Shown here piece by piece: positions 499-9,285 of a stretch of 64,000 nucleotides of DNA (positions within the stretch are counted from its first letter, which is position 1; every line of letters begins with the position of its first letter). The position numbers and the translations under genes were made by a program. The DNA comes from Verrucomicrobiota bacterium (GTDB lineage Bacteria > Verrucomicrobiota > Verrucomicrobiia > Verrucomicrobiales > Akkermansiaceae): the NCBI GenBank assembly GCA_030835305.1, contig JAURPJ010000097.1, forward strand, positions 62,001-126,000, in the 5' to 3' direction. The notes below the pieces were generated by a model, which saw only the letters and a program-made list of their open reading frames with translations, was not told the origin of the DNA and made no database searches.

Positions 499-1668
499 AT
501 GAGTCGCTCCAATTCCCCAACCCTCAGTCACCGGCTTGAGTATTGCGCCTATCGCGCATTCGAGTGGATGTTCAGGATGATGGCGCTGGAAACCATCTTC
601 AGACTCGGCGAATTCATAGGACGGATTGTGCATCGCTGCAATACCGGTCGAAGGCAACAAGTGATCCGTAACCTTCGCCTCGCATTTGGCGACGAAAAAT
701 CGCGACCGGAAATCGAACAACTCGCCGCAGAGGTTTTTGAGCGCACCGGAGCCAATTTCCTTACTTCGCTCAAGATTCCCTTTTTAAGTGACAACGAAAT
801 ACTGAGCAGGCTTCACTTCGAAGGGTTGGCCGAAGTCTTCGAGGCCACCGACAAAGGCGGCATTGTCATGGTCTCCACGCACATGGGAAACTGGGAACTA
901 CTTGCTCAGGCCATCTTCTTGGCCGAGGGAAAATTTAAAGTTGGAACACACTATCGCCCTCTCAACAACGCCCTAATTAATGCTGTCGTTGAACGCCGGA
1001 GAAAGCGGCGGGGCCTACAACTGTTCGCCAAAAAGTCCTCCACCCACCAAATCGCCAGCTTCGTTCGGGAAGGCGGCGCCATGGGCATCCTGGCCGACCA
1101 ACGGGTTGGCGGGCGCGGAGCGGCCTGTCTCTTTTTTGGTCGACCCACCACCTGCTCGCCACTGCCTCACTTGATTGCCAAGCGGGGAAAAGGCCTCCTC
1201 TTCAGCCTCTCTTGTGAAACGGTCGGAACGGCCCACTGGCAGATCTCCTTCAGGCATATCCCGACAATCTCCGCCCAAGCGTGTGCCAATAGCATCGAAC
1301 AGAACTGGCGCCGATCACCGGTCGATGTTTTTTGGTACGAAGACCGCTGGCGAATCCAGGGAAAGCGACCCCTTGCTTTTCTCAACAAATATCAGGACGA
1401 TCTTGAGACTCCCCGCCCCCTTCGGTCCGTGAACCTCGCCCCTGAAAATTGCGAGCTACCCTATCCCGGTCACCTGATCACCCAGGAACATCAGGAAGTG
1501 AACTTCGCTGAAAGCGATCAATCACTCCGCCGTAAGCTCAGAGAAATCTCAGATTCCAGCACAACTCCGGTCGACGTCTTTCTTTGCCCAAGATCTCAAA
1601 TTAAACGCATTAAAAAGCTCTCAGGAAAAATACTGGCTCTTCCGGCCGAAGAAGAATACCTCTCGTGA
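499..1668 (+). CDS. LpxL/HtrB-like lipid A acyltransferase with C-terminal extension
   Basis: A lysophospholipid-acyltransferase-fold enzyme of the LpxL/LpxM family, expected to add a secondary acyl chain to Kdo-lipid A at the inner membrane. The catalytic H-x4-[DE] motif is HMGNWE (His128, Glu133), and RLAF..D at residues 60-66 and the GILADQR block near 195 are also typical. It is 389 residues where LpxL is usually about 300-320. The last 70-80 residues are not recognised and contain a short patch, [19 protein letters not shown], that could be a separate small domain. It lies one base-pair overlap before the UDP-glucose dehydrogenase reading frame, with which it is probably co-transcribed. 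The acyl donor and the position modified cannot be told from sequence. Confidence 0.85.
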
Positions 1669-1694
1669 AGAATTCGCCACTTTACAAAACAAAA

Positions 1695-3053
1695 ATGAAA
1701 ATCTGCTGCATCGGTGCAGGCTATGTCGGAGGTCCCACCATGGCAATGATCGCGACCAAATGTCCGGATATCGACGTCACCGTCGTAGACATCAATGCCG
1801 AACGAATCGCAGCCTGGAATAGCGAGGCGCTTCCAATCTTCGAGAAAGGGTTGGACGAACTTGTCATCGCCGCCCGCGGACAAAATCTCTTCTTCAGCAC
1901 CAACGTCGATCAAAGCATTGATGAGGCCGACATCGTCTTTATCTCCGTCAACACCCCCACCAAGACCTACGGCACCGGGGCCGGAAAAGCCTCCGACCTC
2001 AAATACATCGAGCTCTGCGCCCGCAAGATCGCAGAAGTCTCCACCACCGACAAAATCGTTGTCGAAAAATCCACCCTCCCGGTCCGCACAGCATCGACTA
2101 TCAAGAGGATCCTTAAGAACTGCCCCAGCGAAGCCCAGTTCGAGGTCCTCTCCAATCCCGAATTCCTCGCCGAAGGCACCGCCATCAAAGACCTTCAGGA
2201 ACCCGACCGCGTCCTCATTGGTGGTGATCAAACCCCCGAAGGTCTGGCCGCGATCCAAACCCTCTTCGATATCTACGCCCGCTGGGTCTCACCCGACCGT
2301 ATCCTCACCACCAATGTCTGGTCCTCCGAACTATCCAAGCTCACCGCCAACGCCTTTCTCGCCCAGCGCATCTCCTCCATCAACGCCATCTCAGCGCTCT
2401 GCGAAGCAACCGAAGCCAATGTCGATGAAGTCGCGCGCGCCGTCGGTAGCGATTCCCGCATCGGCCCGAAGTTCCTCAAATCATCCGTCGGCTTCGGCGG
2501 GTCCTGCTTCCAAAAAGACGTCCTCAATCTGGTTTACCTCTGTGAACACTACGGCCTCACTGAAGTCGCCCAGTATTGGGAGCAGGTCATTTTAATGAAC
2601 AACTATCAGCGCAAACGCTTCGTTCAGCGCATGGTCACCACCCTTTTCAACACCGTCGCTGGAAAGAAAATCGCCGTCCTCGGTTTCGCCTTCAAAAAGG
2701 ACACCAACGACACCCGCGAGTCCGCCGCCATTTACATCTGCCGCGACCTCCTCGACGAACAAGCCGAGATCCACATTTACGACCCCAAGGTTTCTCACAA
2801 ACAAATCTGTGCCGACCTCGGAATCCCCGAAGGTCACCCCGGAGTCCACATCCACTCCTCCGCCTCTGACGCCTGCGCCAACGCCCACGCTGTCGCCGTC
2901 CTCACCGAGTGGGATGAATTCACTGAACTCGACTTCCAATCGATCTTCGACAACATGCTCAAACCCTCCTTCATCTTCGACGGCCGTAACATCCTCGACC
3001 TCGAAGCCCTCCGCAAAATCGGCTTCGAAACCCACGCTGTGGGGAAGGTGTAG
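1695..3053 (+). CDS. ugd: UDP-glucose 6-dehydrogenase
   Basis: Oxidises UDP-glucose to UDP-glucuronate with two NAD+, in the cytoplasm, supplying uronic acid for surface polysaccharide. The N-terminal Rossmann motif is [11 protein letters not shown]. The catalytic cysteine sits in [10 protein letters not shown] (about residue 271), and [13 protein letters not shown] marks the C-terminal UDP-binding domain. The length (452 aa) and wording of the motifs resemble the animal-type branch (UGDH) more than the shorter Ugd/TuaD type. The ATG at 1695 puts the Rossmann strand at the N terminus as in homologues; an in-frame GTG at 1665, overlapping the upstream stop, would add ten residues. With the epimerase at 4361 it could form a UDP-glucuronate to UDP-galacturonate route. 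Confidence 0.92.
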
Positions 3054-3241
3054 AAAAACGGCGGAAAAGGAGGACGCATTATCCCTCAATGACTTGTGTT
3101 CGAGTAATTGGAAGTGGTTTGACAAACAAATGCAACACGCCGTCCTACAGAATCACTCGATCAAATAAACCGGCGACTCTCCTACTTCAGCCAACTCGAT
3201 AACCTCACCAAGGCATCGAGCACATTGAAAAACTCACCCGG

Positions 3242-4246
3242 CTATGGTCCGGCGAAGGAGCGGCCGTTGCACCACAGCATGATAATTTGATCGTCTTCGC
3301 CCTCGAAGCGAAGGGTATACACTTCTTCCTCCGTTTCCAACTTCTCCACAAACGTAGCCGAACCCAGTTGCTCTAGAAAGACCTGAAGCATTCGGAATCC
3401 ATCCCGCTTACGCCACTCTCCCTCAATTCGTTCATCTACCAAACCGAAGCCATCCGCCACTATGCGCCACCAGTAAACCTGCTCCACAAACCCGGAGCAG
3501 ATTACAATTACAAGGTAGCGGAGCACGAAGACTCCGTATTCAAATTCCGAAACACTAAGCGGGTTTTCCGGGGCATTCGGGTGTTTGTAGGTCGCCGTCA
3601 CCGGCGACCAGGTTCCGGTTCTCACGAGAGGCCAATTCACTTCAGAAATCACCACCCGATCATCACATTGCGGCATCACCCTAGGAGTCAGTTCCATATT
3701 TTGATTTCCCAAACCCCGATGACAAAAGCCGGCGTCGTGCATTCACTTCATGGTCGTCCCAAATTTCTCAAGCAGCCCCACTAAGAGATCCGCCGGACCA
3801 CACTCCGAATATATCGCGGACAACTCGGCCTTCAAACGCCTCAAACCGCTGAGATATTCTGAAAAATAATAACTCTCTGCCAAGCCCCCATTTTCCCAGC
3901 GATCAAAATAGACCAACGGCTCTGGAGTCCCCACCCCATGCTTCTGCAAAAAACAGGGAGCCTGGAACGATCTCGCCGCCTTCGAGCCCTGCTCCCGATC
4001 ATAGCGATCTTTCCAGCCTCCCTGCCGGCCAAAAGCCTTCACCGCCACCTGCACCAAGCATCCTTCCCTCTCAAAGCACAAAACCACAACGCGATTACGT
4101 CCTTCTGCCAACAGCCCCTCCTTTTGCGAAAAAACCTCCTCCCATAATCCCTTAATTCGTCCCTCATCAAAAGCATCCACCGGGTCACAGCTGACCTCAC
4201 CGGTCAACCCGTCGTGATAATACTTTTGAAACTGACCTTGCCTCAT
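3242..4246 (-). pseudogene. Broken chimera: LPS-core sugar kinase N-terminal part joined to glycosidase-like C-terminal part
   Basis: One continuous frame interrupted by an in-frame TGA at 3743-3745. Before the stop, residues 1-167 resemble a WaaP/Kdo-kinase-like protein kinase fold: VAVKAFGRQGGWKDR carries the ATP-binding lysine and FLQKHGVGTPEPL follows. Straight after the stop the frame continues MHDAGFCHRGLGNQNMEL, a degenerate kinase catalytic loop (HRGL where HRDL is expected). From about 3690 leftwards the protein stops looking like a kinase. Instead ISEVNWPL, YVFVLRYL-like and EQVYWWRIVADGFGLVD segments resemble the C-terminal part of glycosidase-like proteins encoded beside such kinases. 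The simplest reading is a deletion fusing two neighbouring genes, plus a nonsense mutation. It is probably non-functional. The family names are from memory of motifs and unverified. Confidence 0.6.
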
Positions 4247-4360: not shown

Positions 4361-5311
4361 ATGCATTACCTCGTCACAGGGGGAGCTGGATTCATCGGCT
4401 CCCACCTAGTTGAAGCCCTTCTTGCCCAAGGAAACGAGATCACAGTCATCGACGACTTTAATGACTACTACGCTCCCCGGATCAAACACCAAAACCTCTC
4501 CGCTTCCCTCTCAAAAATCACCCTCGTCCAAGGCGACATCCGTGATGCCATCCTCGTGGAAAGGACATTCGCGAAGGGCTCTTTCGATGGAGTCATCCAC
4601 CTCGCCGCCCGTGCAGGCGTCCGACCTTCCATCCAATCTCCTAAGCTTTACTTCACGACCAACATCGACGGCACTTTTAACCTTCTCGAGGCCTGCCGCT
4701 ACCATGGCGTCCAAAACTTCATCTTCGCTTCATCCTCCTCGGTCTATGGCATGAATGAAAAGGTCCCCTTCTCAGAAACCGATGCTCTCAACCGCACCAT
4801 CTCACCCTATGCAGCCACAAAGCTTGCGGCCGAGCAGATTTGCTCAAACTACTCCCATCTCTTCGGTATTCGCTGCATGTGTCTCCGCTTCTTCACAGTT
4901 TACGGACCACGCCAACGCCCTGATCTCGCCATCTCAAAATTCACCAAAAAAATTCTCTCCAACGACCCGATCAAGCAATACGGCGACGGATCAACGGCTC
5001 GCGACTACACCTACATCGACGACATCGTGCAAGGCATCCTCACTGCCATTGATTACCACGATTCCCCCTTCGAGATCTTTAACCTCGGCGGATCCGCCAC
5101 CACCACCCTCGCCAGCCTGATCGCACTCGTGGAAGAAGCCTGTGAAAAAAAGGCGAAAGTTGAAATCACCGGAGACCAACCAGGCGATGTCCCCAGAACT
5201 TTCGCGGATGTCTCCAAAGCTCACGAACTTCTTGGCTACGCTCCCCAAACCCCCATCGCAAAGGGGATCAAAAAATACGTGGCTTGGTTTCAGGAAAACC
5301 ATCCGTCATGA
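4361..5311 (+). CDS. NAD-dependent nucleotide-sugar epimerase (UDP-glucuronate 4-epimerase-like)
   Basis: An extended short-chain dehydrogenase that likely epimerises C4 of a UDP-sugar, probably UDP-glucuronate given the upstream Ugd. The NAD-binding motif is TGGAGFIGSHL at residues 5-15. The catalytic set is a Ser-rich FASSSSVYG with the tyrosine in SPYAATK, and RFFTVYGPRQRPDLA and GDGSTARDYTYIDD are the family's substrate-binding stretches. The ATG at 4361 is chosen because the Rossmann strand begins there and GGAGGG lies directly in front, although that spacing is unusually short; the frame is open for 49 more codons upstream. The stop overlaps the ATG of the decayed glycosyltransferase (ATGA), so the two were once translationally coupled. 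Confidence 0.9.
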   Translation: MHYLVTGGAGFIGSHLVEALLAQGNEITVIDDFNDYYAPRIKHQNLSASLSKITLVQGDIRDAILVERTFAKGSFDGVIHLAARAGVRPSIQSPKLYFTTNIDGTFNLLEACRYHGVQNFIFASSSSVYGMNEKVPFSETDALNRTISPYAATKLAAEQICSNYSHLFGIRCMCLRFFTVYGPRQRPDLAISKFTKKILSNDPIKQYGDGSTARDYTYIDDIVQGILTAIDYHDSPFEIFNLGGSATTTLASLIALVEEACEKKAKVEITGDQPGDVPRTFADVSKAHELLGYAPQTPIAKGIKKYVAWFQENHPS

Positions 5312-6430
5312 AGATCGCCATTATTCGCAGCGAGTGCTCTTTCACCAAAGGGGGGGAGCGGAACGCTACGCAGCAAACCTTTGTCGGGAGCTCTGCGAAA
5401 TGGGTCATCAAGTCTGGGTCATCGCTGAAATCTTCGCCGACAATGTCCATCCGGACCTCATCCACATACCAGTCAAAGTGAACTGGGCCACCTCGGCCAC
5501 TCGCAATCGTTCCTTCAATCAAAACGCCCAAAAGGCTGCCCACCAACTCAGCGCCGATCAAGTCATCGCCCTCTCCCTCTGTTATCCTTCCGATGCCTCC
5601 CGCGTCTCGGATCCTCTCCATTGCTACTGGATGGGCCTCCGCTACCCCGGAAAAATCCGCTACTTCATCGAACGACTCAATCCGCGGCACCGCGCCATCT
5701 TAAAATTGGAATGCGAGATCATGTCGCCCCAAAACACCCGCATCATTGTCACGAACTCCAGACTCTCAAAAAAGCTGATCGGGCAATATTACGGCTACCC
5801 CCAAGACCGCATTCACGTCATTTAAAATGGCGTCGATTATGAGCAATTCTCCCCCGACCACAACATTCGGGAAGACTCAACCCTCACGCTTTTTTTCGTT
5901 GGCCAGGACTTCCAACGCAAAGGGCTTGCCGAAGTCATTGACGACCCTCGCCCTAGTTCACAATGCCGGCCATCCCTGCCCCCTGCGCGTCATCGGTCGC
6001 GACGACCCAGTTTCCTTCACAAAACAAGCCGTCCGCCTCAACATTCTCAACGCCATCTCATTCGAAGGCCCTACAAAAAAAAATCCAAGAAGCCTACCAA
6101 AGCTCCGACCTGTTTGTCTTCCCATCCTTATATGATCCTTTTGCAAACGTCGTTCTCGAATCTCTCGCCTGCGGACTCCCGGCACTCACAACTACCACGA
6201 ATGGCTCATCGGAAATCATTACCCAAGACACAGATAGATACGTCATGAAAGGGGCCACCGATCACCTCGCCAAAGACCTCGCCGATCGCATTCAAGAATT
6301 CTGCAAACTCTCCCCGGATGAGCGCTCCATGATGCGGAAAGCAGCCATCGAAAGAGCCACCGCCATGTCCGATGGAGAATCTTTATTTACTTCAATTAAA
6401 AGCCCGAACCTGGATGCTGAAAAATCATAA
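5308..6430 (+). pseudogene. Decayed WaaG-like glycosyltransferase (GT4)
   Basis: A GT4 glycosyltransferase resembling LPS core glucosyltransferase WaaG can be read only by joining four pieces. Piece 1 (MKIAIIRSECSFTKGG) ends in a run of seven G at about 5350-5356, where one base is missing. Piece 2 (AERYAANLCRELCEMGHQV to DRIHVI) ends at an in-frame TAA at 5822-5824, where NGVDYEQFSP continues in the same frame. Near 5942 one extra base moves the frame to TLALVHNAGHPCPLRVIGR. At a run of nine A (6073-6081) one more base moves it to KIQEAYQSSDLFVFPSLYDPF, which holds the E-x7-E donor-binding region (FANVVLESLACGLP). Three indels and one nonsense codon make a functional protein very unlikely. 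The ATGA overlap with the epimerase shows it was part of that operon. Confidence 0.85.
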
Positions 6431-6481: not shown

Positions 6482-8227
6482 TTAAACCTCGGCGCGCTCA
6501 GAAACAATCTCTCCCTGGTCCAATTCAATCACGCGGCTCGCAATCTTGGTCGTGGACAGTCGATGGGCAATCAGCAAAGTCGTCCGACCTTTCACCAAAT
6601 CCACTAATTCAGACTGGATAACTGCCTCGCTTTCATTATCGAGCGCACTCGTTGCCTCATCCAAAAGAAGAATGGGCGCATCCTTCAAGAAGGCCCGGGC
6701 GATGGCGATGCGCTGCCGCTGGCCACCCGACAAACTTCTTCCCATTTCAGAGACTGCAGTGTCATAGCCATGCTCCTGCTTCAGGATAAAATCATGCGCG
6801 TTCGCTTTTTTTGCCGCACTGATTATCTCTTCCTCATTGGCATCGGAGCGCCCAAGTAGAATATTCTCTCGAATGGTTCCTTGAAACAAAACAGCAGTCT
6901 GCGATACGACTGCAATTTGATCGCGGAGCTCCCTCTTCGCCCATTCCCTCACATCGATCCCACTCACCGTCACGCCTCCCGACTTCACATCATAGAAACG
7001 CGGAATCAAATTAAAGAGACTCGACTTTCCTCCTCCACTCGGACCAATTAAAGCCACACACTGGCCGGGTTCAATCGTTAGGTTGATGCCACGAAGGAAG
7101 ACTTCGTCACCATAACCAAAAGAGACGTCTTTAAAAATAACCCGACTTTCAAAATGCTGTGGACGCCTCGGATGCTCGGGATCATCCAAATTATCCACCG
7201 CGAGGGAAATTTCCTCCAGTCGCTCGAGTGAGGCATCGGCCTGCTTCAGATTTGCGTGAATCGCACCCAACTTTTTCACAGGCTCGTAGCAGAGATAGAG
7301 AGCCATCGCGATGGCCATAAAGCTCGAAAGTTTCATTCCCTGTTGCGCTCCCAGATAGATCGCCACCGTCAGGCCGACCACCGAAACAAACTCCACCGAA
7401 GGCGAAATCAATTGCTTGTATTTCACCACCTCCATTGAGTAGCGGATGATTCCCTTAATCCGGCTACGGAATTTTTGAATAACCGCATGCTGGAGATTGT
7501 AAGCCCTAATGTCGAGAGGCGCCTGAATCGACTCGGAAATTTGCCCGCTCAAATCACCGGCACTGGCTTGTAAGCTTCGAGCCTTATCTCCCAAGCGCTT
7601 CGTGATCGCACGCAGAGGCAGAACACACAGTGGAATTGAGAAAATTGAAAAGAGCACGAGGGAGGCCCCTTGGTTCGAAACAGCCTCAGAAATCAAAAAG
7701 ATCAGAGCTGCCATCAAAACCGCCGGTTGTTTAATGAGATCAACCGCCACCTTGCCTACCGTCGATCGAACCACCTCGGTATCCCCCACGAGGCGTGCAA
7801 GCAGATCTCCCGCCTGCCTCTTTTGAAAAAAGGCAACCGGTAAAGTCTGCAACTTTGTAAAGACCTCATCGCGGACCTGTTCCAAAAAACGAAACCCGCA
7901 ATAACTAATGAGATAGGTATTCAAAAACCCTCCGGCAGCGCGAAAGAGAAACATCAGAGGAAGCCACGCACAAGCAGCGGCCAGCACCCAATCGGCAGGC
8001 AGGCGCTCGAACCAATTCATGAGCACTTCCACAAAGAAACTGTTTTCGTTCTCGTCACCCCCGGCATCAACCTGATCGTCCTCAAAGATGAGAGGCAGCA
8101 CCACCTTCGCAGCCAGAGGCAACCCGGCTCCAGTCGCCGCGGCGTAAACCAATCCGGCCAAGACACTTCCTGCAAGCTGCCACTTAACGGGCTTGAAGTA
8201 TTTGAAATAGGGCTGAAAACGCTTCAT
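6482..8227 (-). CDS. ABC exporter, MsbA-like (fused membrane and ATPase domains)
   Basis: A half-size ABC exporter, 581 residues. The first ~320 residues carry the six-helix transmembrane domain, with an acidic periplasmic loop at about 51-63. The ATPase domain has Walker A GPSGGGKSS at about 395-403, the Q-loop VVSQTAVLFQ, the signature LSGGQRQR near 499, Walker B ILLLDEATSALD near 519-530, and the H-loop IAHRLST. It is expected to work as a homodimer in the inner membrane. Family size and its place among LPS genes suggest lipid A-core flipping (MsbA), but lipid or peptide export by related proteins cannot be excluded. It is transcribed towards the pseudogene and diverges from kdsD across 68 bases. 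Confidence 0.85.
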   Translation of the reverse strand: MKRFQPYFKYFKPVKWQLAGSVLAGLVYAAATGAGLPLAAKVVLPLIFEDDQVDAGGDENENSFFVEVLMNWFERLPADWVLAAACAWLPLMFLFRAAGGFLNTYLISYCGFRFLEQVRDEVFTKLQTLPVAFFQKRQAGDLLARLVGDTEVVRSTVGKVAVDLIKQPAVLMAALIFLISEAVSNQGASLVLFSIFSIPLCVLPLRAITKRLGDKARSLQASAGDLSGQISESIQAPLDIRAYNLQHAVIQKFRSRIKGIIRYSMEVVKYKQLISPSVEFVSVVGLTVAIYLGAQQGMKLSSFMAIAMALYLCYEPVKKLGAIHANLKQADASLERLEEISLAVDNLDDPEHPRRPQHFESRVIFKDVSFGYGDEVFLRGINLTIEPGQCVALIGPSGGGKSSLFNLIPRFYDVKSGGVTVSGIDVREWAKRELRDQIAVVSQTAVLFQGTIRENILLGRSDANEEEIISAAKKANAHDFILKQEHGYDTAVSEMGRSLSGGQRQRIAIARAFLKDAPILLLDEATSALDNESEAVIQSELVDLVKGRTTLLIAHRLSTTKIASRVIELDQGEIVSERAEV

Positions 8228-8295: not shown

Positions 8296-9285
8296 TTGAG
8301 CAAAGATCCGCGTGTGGATTTCATCGCCAAAGGCCGCAAAACCCTCGAAATCGAAGCAACCCAACTGCTCATGCTCGCTGGTCGTCTCGACGGCTGCTTC
8401 GTCCAATCCGTCGAGGCGCTGGAAGAAACACTAATCGCTGGGAAAAAGATCGTCGTGATCGGTGTTGGCAAATCCGAAAGCATCGGCAATAAATTTGTGG
8501 CCACGCTCAATAGTACGGGCGCCACCGCCGTCAATCTGAGTTGCCAAAATGCCATTCACGGAGACCTCGGAGTCCTTGCGATCGGAGATCTTGTTGTCGC
8601 CCTAAGCTACTCGGGAGAAACCAGCGAGATGATCACGCTTCTTCCACACGTTAAAAAACGTGCTTTCCGCATCATCTCGATCACCGGAGCACCCGCCTCC
8701 ACCCTCGCCAAACACAGTGATCTCGTTCTCGACACCTCTATCGAGGAAGAGGCCTGCCCCCTGCAATTGGCGCCAACCTCCAGCACCACCAACATGCTTG
8801 GTCTCTGCGATGCCCTCGCCATGGTCCTTCTCGAGAAACGCGGCTTCCGGGCCGAAGACTTTGCCGAACTCCACCCCGGTGGAAACCTGGGAAAATACCT
8901 CCTCACTCGGGTCTCGGACATCATGAGAACGGGTGACGCGCTCGCGAAAATACCGATTAAGTCCCTGGTGCAGGATGCCGTCTTAAAAATGCTGGAATGT
9001 CGTGCCGGGGCGGCTGTCATCGTTAACTCCGACGAGTCGCTCGCGGGGATATTTACTCATGGCGATTTCGTGCGAGGTTACCAATCAAACCGCGAAATCG
9101 GAGACTCTCCAGTCATAGAGCACATGACTCGGAATCCCATCTCCATTCACCGCGATGACTTGGCCGTTGAAATCGTCCGAACCCTTCGCGAATACCGCAT
9201 CGATGACCTTGTCGTCGTGAATGATGAAAACCAAGCCGTCGGCCTTGTGGATGTTCAAGACCTCTCGCGACATGGGTTGAGCTAG
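8296..9285 (+). CDS. kdsD: D-arabinose 5-phosphate isomerase
   Basis: Interconverts ribulose 5-phosphate and arabinose 5-phosphate, the first committed step towards Kdo for lipopolysaccharide. The SIS domain covers about residues 35-170 (VIGVGKSESIGNKFVATL, HGDLGVL, ALSYSGETSEM, TSSTTNMLGLCDALA). HPGGNLGK precedes two CBS domains at about 205-329. The length matches the 320-330 residue KdsD/KpsF/GutQ family. The start chosen is TTG at 8296; no in-frame ATG lies in a sensible place, and a GTG at 8311 is the alternative. The gene stands alone, divergent from the MsbA-like exporter, which fits an LPS role. Confidence 0.93.
   Translation: MSKDPRVDFIAKGRKTLEIEATQLLMLAGRLDGCFVQSVEALEETLIAGKKIVVIGVGKSESIGNKFVATLNSTGATAVNLSCQNAIHGDLGVLAIGDLVVALSYSGETSEMITLLPHVKKRAFRIISITGAPASTLAKHSDLVLDTSIEEEACPLQLAPTSSTTNMLGLCDALAMVLLEKRGFRAEDFAELHPGGNLGKYLLTRVSDIMRTGDALAKIPIKSLVQDAVLKMLECRAGAAVIVNSDESLAGIFTHGDFVRGYQSNREIGDSPVIEHMTRNPISIHRDDLAVEIVRTLREYRIDDLVVVNDENQAVGLVDVQDLSRHGLS

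Follow-up and report, generated by a model that had tools for sequence, protein, structure and literature searches.

What does the short, interrupted reading frame at positions 3242–4246 of the window (the whole 64,000-nucleotide stretch of Verrucomicrobiota DNA analyzed here) represent: two genes run together, or one gene that has lost its middle? The frame occupies exactly that interval of the minus strand, read from 4246 to 3242, and comprises 335 codons with one internal TGA and the TAG. From the ATG at 4246, 167 kinase-like codons lead to the TGA (3745–3743), after which the frame continues with MHDAGFCHRGLGNQNMELTPRV...; the stretch ending WCNGRSFAGP directly precedes the TAG. The initial annotation attributed this frame to a deletion that had collapsed two adjacent genes. 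We conclude, with little doubt, that the frame represents a single, recently inactivated two-domain gene, encoding a Kdo/WaaP-type kinase, a linker, and a GH39-like barrel, in a lipid A/core locus of a marine Verrucomicrobiales bacterium. Its function was lost through a TGA ahead of the catalytic loop, loss of the catalytic Asp, one in-frame deletion, and a TAG accompanied by a frameshift.

Table 1. Features of the pseudogene and of its neighbors, in window coordinates
Feature	Coordinates	Strand	Remarks
Lipid A acyltransferase-like gene (lpxL type), open	499..1668	+	PF03279, E 3e-35
UDP-glucose 6-dehydrogenase-like gene (UGD), open	1665..3053	+	PF03721, E 2.5e-61
C-terminal tail, shifted frame	3153..3209	-	Reads like the relatives' C-terminus; ends at the likely original stop
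In-frame TAG	3242..3244	-	Early end of the C-terminal remnant
GH39-like domain remnant	3245..3679	-	Starts just before the seventh barrel strand
Join of the internal deletion	3679..3680	-	353 profile positions (190–542) gone, in frame
HRGL in place of the H-x-D-L of relatives	3710..3721	-	Catalytic Asp lost
In-frame TGA	3743..3745	-	Just upstream of the catalytic loop
Kinase (Kdo/WaaP-like) N-terminal remnant, pseudogene	3746..4246	-	Open until the TGA
NAD-dependent nucleotide-sugar epimerase, open	4361..5311	+	PF01370, PF16363
GT4 glycosyltransferase pseudogene	5308..6430	+	Outer limits approximate; matches L092:6684-7787 and the GT4 of L023
MsbA-like ABC exporter, open	6482..8227	-	PF00005, PF00664
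KdsD-like frame, open	8296..9285	+	Matched at 66–75% in 8 of 15 neighborhoods

Much of what had been read from the frame itself stands. It does begin like a WaaP/Kdo-type kinase, in that the kinase half aligns with 15 relatives and PF06293 is found in all four full-length relatives scanned, and it does end like a glycosidase, its C-terminus aligning with relatives whose barrel model is nearest to GH39. The inactivating TGA was correctly placed between the ATP-binding half and the catalytic loop, and the match of the kinase remnant to the family profile (positions 1–189) continues past it to 3680. This remnant is 64–65% identical to the kinase start of three congeners (G004, G008, and G021). 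The loop reads HRGL for HRDL, as had been noticed; the Gly aligns with a catalytic Asp that is present in 15 of 15 congeners (as H-R-D in 13). H-x-D and D-L-N are the names of kinase catalytic motifs, and the Asp of each is present in 61 of the 62 intact family members; in the window copy the former has become Gly and the latter has been deleted. A deletion did indeed occur, and it took the rest of the kinase (including the D-L-N motif), the linker, and barrel strands 1–6 (the position of the seventh strand is a count from DSSP). By eye, and judging from relatives, the 5-bp sequence AGGGT was possibly common to both flanks of the join (it is seen in one flank in G004 and G008 and in the other flank in G016) and could have been the point of joining. 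With a TGA, a TAG, a frameshifted tail, a changed catalytic Asp, and an in-frame deletion, the window copy is a pseudogene. It has an altered catalytic Asp and no D-L-N motif, linker, or strands 1–6, so that neither kinase nor barrel activity is expected of it.

Separate searches with the two halves covered 38 genomes, comprising the window's own, 23 other congeners, and 14 from outside the genus. Both halves match the same 15 of the 23 congeners, and neither matches any of the 14 genomes outside the genus. In those 15 congeners, the two halves share one open frame of 720–761 codons (610 in G008, at a contig end), the product being one protein of 708–737 residues that includes both domains. 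Identity to the window's halves is 41–65% for the kinase and 50–70% for the C-terminus, with the 50% figure coming from a short stretch in G008, which is cut by the contig end. A profile built from ten intact relatives and searched over all 27 genomes of the genus gives one match, free of stops, in each of 16 of the 26 other congeners (truncated in one of them where the contig ends) and no match in 10; the latter genomes are 65–97% complete, and some of the absences may be assembly gaps. Only in the window's genome is the match broken, into abutting pieces at profile positions 1–189 (with one TGA) and 543–699 (with one TAG). Their E-values of 4e-78 and 7e-74 mean that the match is not due to chance. 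The initial annotation had suggested separate profile searches of the halves: this profile matches both, and in Pfam and NCBIfam the broken halves match no family at E 1. The same profile finds no leftover middle piece anywhere in the window's assembly. Given the single stop-free match in congeners and the two abutting pieces with no leftover middle, we conclude that this was one fused gene, now missing 353 positions.

The fusion extends well beyond the genus. A wider search recovered 66 loci, and both domains are in one ORF in 64 of them (49 of 51 independent loci, the other 15 being contigs already counted among the congeners). The exceptions are L087, at a contig edge, and L041, in a Roseibacillus MAG, with an in-frame TAG. 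The loci come from Verrucomicrobia, Kiritimatiellaeota, Lentisphaerae, Planctomycetota, Saccharospirillum, Natronospirillum, a few other Proteobacteria, and one member of the Thermoanaerobaculales; among them, locus L063 belongs to Saccharospirillum impatiens, a species in culture. Incidentally, the Roseibacillus MAG carries the gene twice, on separate contigs (L041 and L042) and with 97% identity between the copies, and the TAG in the first (L041:10162-10164) is possibly a second, independent decay. In seven loci (L053, L058, L068, L070, L073, L078, and L079) the stop-to-stop frame reaches about 270–660 codons upstream of the kinase part, indicating either extra N-terminal domains or merely open frame. 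A plasmid search returned one match (24% identity over 32% of the query), and in PHROGs one intact protein had no match and another had a weak kinase match. The search for a second Kdo-family kinase in the window's genome gave one marginal, partial match (21.7 bits, with a cut-off of 21.3) inside a frame of 1117 codons.

These results bear most directly on the collapse of two adjacent core-oligosaccharide genes, one for a kinase and one for a glycosidase, into a single frame. The kinase-like start, the glycosidase-like end, and the deletion between them agree with it, but what is missing is the inside of one protein. The relatives in which an undeleted gene pair might have been sought have instead one fused, stop-free frame in the same neighborhood, and do so in all 16 congeners that have the family as well as in 64 of the 66 wider loci. 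These intact orthologs refute the collapse of two genes, which we consider extremely improbable: the relatives encode the same fusion without the stop, and the deletion was internal to one gene. We give equally little credence to recoding of the TGA (by readthrough or as selenocysteine), by which the short frame would encode a functional miniature protein. The deletion is in frame and there is no other internal stop up to 3244, as recoding would have it, but where the window has the TGA, 15 relatives carry R, K, Q, A, or S and never Cys, and TGA ends 3 of the 13 intact orthologs whose end is visible. Moreover, the catalytic Asp is changed, the D-L-N motif is deleted, and a TAG and a frameshift follow. 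Joining of reads from two strains or paralogs during assembly or binning, with the middle dropped, deserves consideration since the window's genome is a draft in 133 contigs, where faulty assembly could in principle have produced the join, and since the two remnants are of mosaic ancestry. Against such an artefact are the independent lesions away from the join (the TGA, the TAG, the frameshifted tail, and HRG), the second broken gene nearby, and the lack of an orphan middle piece elsewhere in the assembly, and we think it improbable.

The idea of a chimera does survive in part, in that, within this one gene, the nearest relatives of the kinase remnant are not those of the C-terminal remnant. 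The former clusters with G004, G008, and G021 (support 98/98), and its placement in the G013 clade is rejected (AU p 0.003); for the C-terminal remnant, placement with G004 and G021 is rejected (AU p 0.0075) and there is a leaning to the G013 clade (70/59) that is not firm, all p-values being descriptive as the clades were named after the identities had been seen. Diagnostic sites divide as 26 A, 2 B, and 11 neither in the kinase part (n=39), and as 1 A, 11 B, and 5 neither in the C-terminal part (n=17). Control genomes that belong to neither clade lean alike (G007, 16:8 then 4:11; G005, 14:6 then 4:10), and thus the site counts are weak. Recombination between alleles and deletion between two diverged copies both fit this mosaic. 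The latter would have acted on tandem copies of the fused gene, one of which contributed the kinase and the other the C-terminus. It accords with the different grouping of the remnants in the AU tests and at the diagnostic sites, and with the presence of a pair of copies, 97% identical, on separate contigs (L041, L042) in a single MAG. However, two matches are found in none of the 26 other congeners, and allelic homologous recombination that preceded the deletion would account for these data as well (G023 carries a G005 patch). Considering also the weak site counts (the G007 and G005 controls) and the post hoc naming of clades, we judge the tandem-copy route unlikely. The patch in G023 (L013) is in an open frame, where columns from about 490 to 540 are identical to the G005 protein and the rest is G019-like; it indicates either recent recombination or a chimeric MAG.

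The single two-domain gene probably acquired its lesions recently. Pairwise dN/dS for the kinase remnant is 0.14–0.16 versus 0.16–0.27 among intact relatives, so that no signature of long neutral decay is seen in the dN/dS of this remnant; for the C-terminal part, most pairs are saturated. The window copy has changed 9 of 100 invariant columns, a slight excess over the leave-one-out control (at most 7 of 107). Because both measures are near those of the controls, the divergence seems to have accumulated mostly under constraint.

What the intact gene encodes is best approached domain by domain. All four full-length relatives scanned match the Kdo/WaaP family PF06293, with E-values of 5e-7 to 1e-12 and scores above the gathering score of 21.3 bits, over about positions 46–187 of the 207 in the profile. 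Intact relatives are far below the NCBIfam cut-offs (at best 37.6 of 142 bits for the Kdo kinase and 38.7 of 170 for RfaP). A model of the intact G021 protein (pLDDT 81, pTM 0.63) has WaaP (6dfl) as its top Foldseek match, and when a profile of ten intact proteins was searched against PDB sequences, the best 60 of 136 matches were nearly all kinases, aligned to the kinase part. Thus, residues 1 to about 225 most likely form a predicted sugar kinase of the Kdo/WaaP type. The intact proteins resemble that family (PF06293, 6dfl) in their PF06293 match, in their top Foldseek match, and in having both Asp residues, and differ from it in adding a linker and a barrel.

A helical linker joins the kinase to the barrel, which comprises about residues 340–717. 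The barrel eludes sequence comparison: no Pfam family matches more than one of 30 members (best E 0.0027), the GH39 family PF01229 matches none of the 30 at E 1, and a PDB sequence search with the barrel profile gave three matches, with E-values of 0.79 to 1.8, which we took as chance. Alignment by hhalign to a (thin) profile of three GH39 proteins gave a probability of 0.3%, and thus the likeness to GH39 comes from predicted structure. Modeled alone, the barrel has pLDDT 91 and pTM 0.91. VIA-align ranks BcGH39 (5jvk) and PslG (9g17, 5bx9, 4zn2) first (Z 32.8–32.1, 2.9–3.0 A over 339–349 residues), with the next group at Z 26. Foldseek, ordered by E-value, puts GH30 xylanases first, but we prefer the GH39 ranking because its Z is about 6 above that of the next group. 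The C-terminal domain, predicted as a barrel with a beta side domain, is therefore closest to the GH39 fold of PslG and BcGH39.

The predicted active site seems to depart from the usual one. Classical enzymes have N-E at the acid/base position after the fourth strand, and WNEPN or WNEAN is found at that motif in three GH39 proteins. The motif after the fourth strand of the intact family is E-x-x-H-[AV]-V-N-R-x-K-W-G, with His-Ala/Val where N-E is expected in 62 of 62 members (Ala in 57, Val in 5), in a register inferred from the motif and the strand order. The usual acid/base position thus appears to be Ala or Val, while all 62 members have a Glu on the seventh strand (E555, in G021 numbering). 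An Asp and a Glu that are likewise invariant (Asp487 and Glu489 in G021) might take over the acid/base role. In PslG, Glu165 is the postulated acid/base and Glu276 the nucleophile (PMC11912335). In summary, the barrel is like those of PslG (5bx9, 4zn2, 9g17) and BcGH39 (5jvk) in its predicted fold and its seventh-strand Glu, at only 17–18% identity; unlike them, it is fused to a kinase and, in the register just given, appears to have His-Ala/Val for Asn-Glu.

The setting of the gene is informative as well. Among the neighborhoods of 15 relatives, some on contigs that end too soon to show all flanks, an lpxL-like gene is present in 13, an msbA-like gene in 12, a KdsD-like frame in 8 (the window's own frame at 8296..9285 (+) we take to be KdsD-like from its sequence), and UDP-glucose dehydrogenase in 6. 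Wherever both are present, the kinase-GH gene is located between lpxL and msbA, and the gene order in G020 (lpxL, UGD, kinase-GH, epimerase) is that of the window. By lpxL (91.5%) and msbA (95%) the closest genome is G021, whereas the UDP-glucose dehydrogenase of G021 (83.7%) is surpassed in similarity by those of G017 (87.6%) and G004 (86.7%), so that the flanks disagree on one closest genome. Farther afield, 74 ORFs near the gene in loci L044–L090 (those nearest on each side, chosen from 143, with a few long or doubtful ones dropped) include, in the 25 of 55 families listed, glycosyltransferase 2 in 7, glycosyltransferase 1 in 3, LptF/G in 3, PTP-like phosphatase in 3, and others in 1 or 2. 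Given these mixed neighbors, a lipopolysaccharide context can be asserted with confidence for the genus but not beyond it.

The GT4 glycosyltransferase next door is dead, as the initial annotation held: its pieces are in frames 3 and 2, with an in-frame TAA at 5823. Intact GT4 relatives occur in G009 and G017, the former 74% identical to the first part of the broken one. The further suggestion that the whole core branch is being lost is not established, since four of the neighbors (the lpxL-like, UDP-glucose dehydrogenase-like, epimerase, and MsbA-like genes) retain open frames with Pfam matches, and a fifth frame, the KdsD-like one, is open too. G003, G006, G009, and G015, 4 of the 10 congeners that lack the kinase-GH gene, have lpxL and msbA on a single contig, and no copy intervenes. 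The lpxL-like and msbA-like frames of G003 are only 316 bp apart (L091:4824-5141). In G009, the interval holds a YrbL-like (YrbL-PhoP_reg) kinase and two small Kdo-family kinases (L092:4387-5659), in addition to the intact GT4, and that of G015 holds a YrbL-PhoP_reg kinase (L094:2659-3291). It is as if different kinases were replacing one another at the lpxL–msbA interval. Because the flanks are open and the interval is variable, the loss seems to concern single surface-glycan genes and is not established for the core as a whole. The gene is dispensable in the genus, and given this and the variable interval, its decay along with that of the GT4 most likely reflects a change of surface glycan.

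As to function, a hydropathy scan of one intact protein (G021) peaks at a 19-residue mean of 1.35, so that no segment is strongly hydrophobic, in keeping with a cytoplasmic location. Most likely, the intact protein would act in the cytoplasm on a growing lipid-linked core or capsule glycan, with the barrel holding the sugar chain that the kinase would phosphorylate. Kinase and barrel may act together as WbdD does in capping O9a chains. WbdD, the E. coli O9a chain terminator, is a polysaccharide kinase fused to a methyltransferase (PMC3482155); it too links a kinase to another catalytic domain in the building of a glycan and offers a model of how such a fused kinase may act. It differs from the intact family in that its second domain is a methyltransferase and is accompanied by a coiled coil. 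No published description of a kinase-GH fusion was found in the literature searched, outside of which lie most subscription journals. A bolder reading, which we put forward tentatively and think unlikely to hold in full, is that of an undescribed bifunctional class, mostly of Verrucomicrobiota and their kin and scattered elsewhere. In this class, a GH39-fold barrel that has kept the nucleophile and lost the acid/base would hold, measure, or transglycosylate a lipid-linked glycan that the WaaP-like kinase phosphorylates in the manner of WbdD, and one species would be losing the gene, the remnant being a mosaic of two alleles. The dead copy itself is ordinary, and the intact fusion is a variant of a known WaaP kinase and a GH39-like fold.

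More generally, what looks like a chimera can be a natural fusion that has lost its middle, and recognizing this corrects a wrong inference. Here, it points to a conserved family of two-domain proteins, in which the second domain is not recognized by the profile libraries used and the predicted active site seems to differ from that of known glycosidases. If tested, this family could reveal how a kinase and a glycosidase fold cooperate in the assembly of envelope glycans in Verrucomicrobiota.
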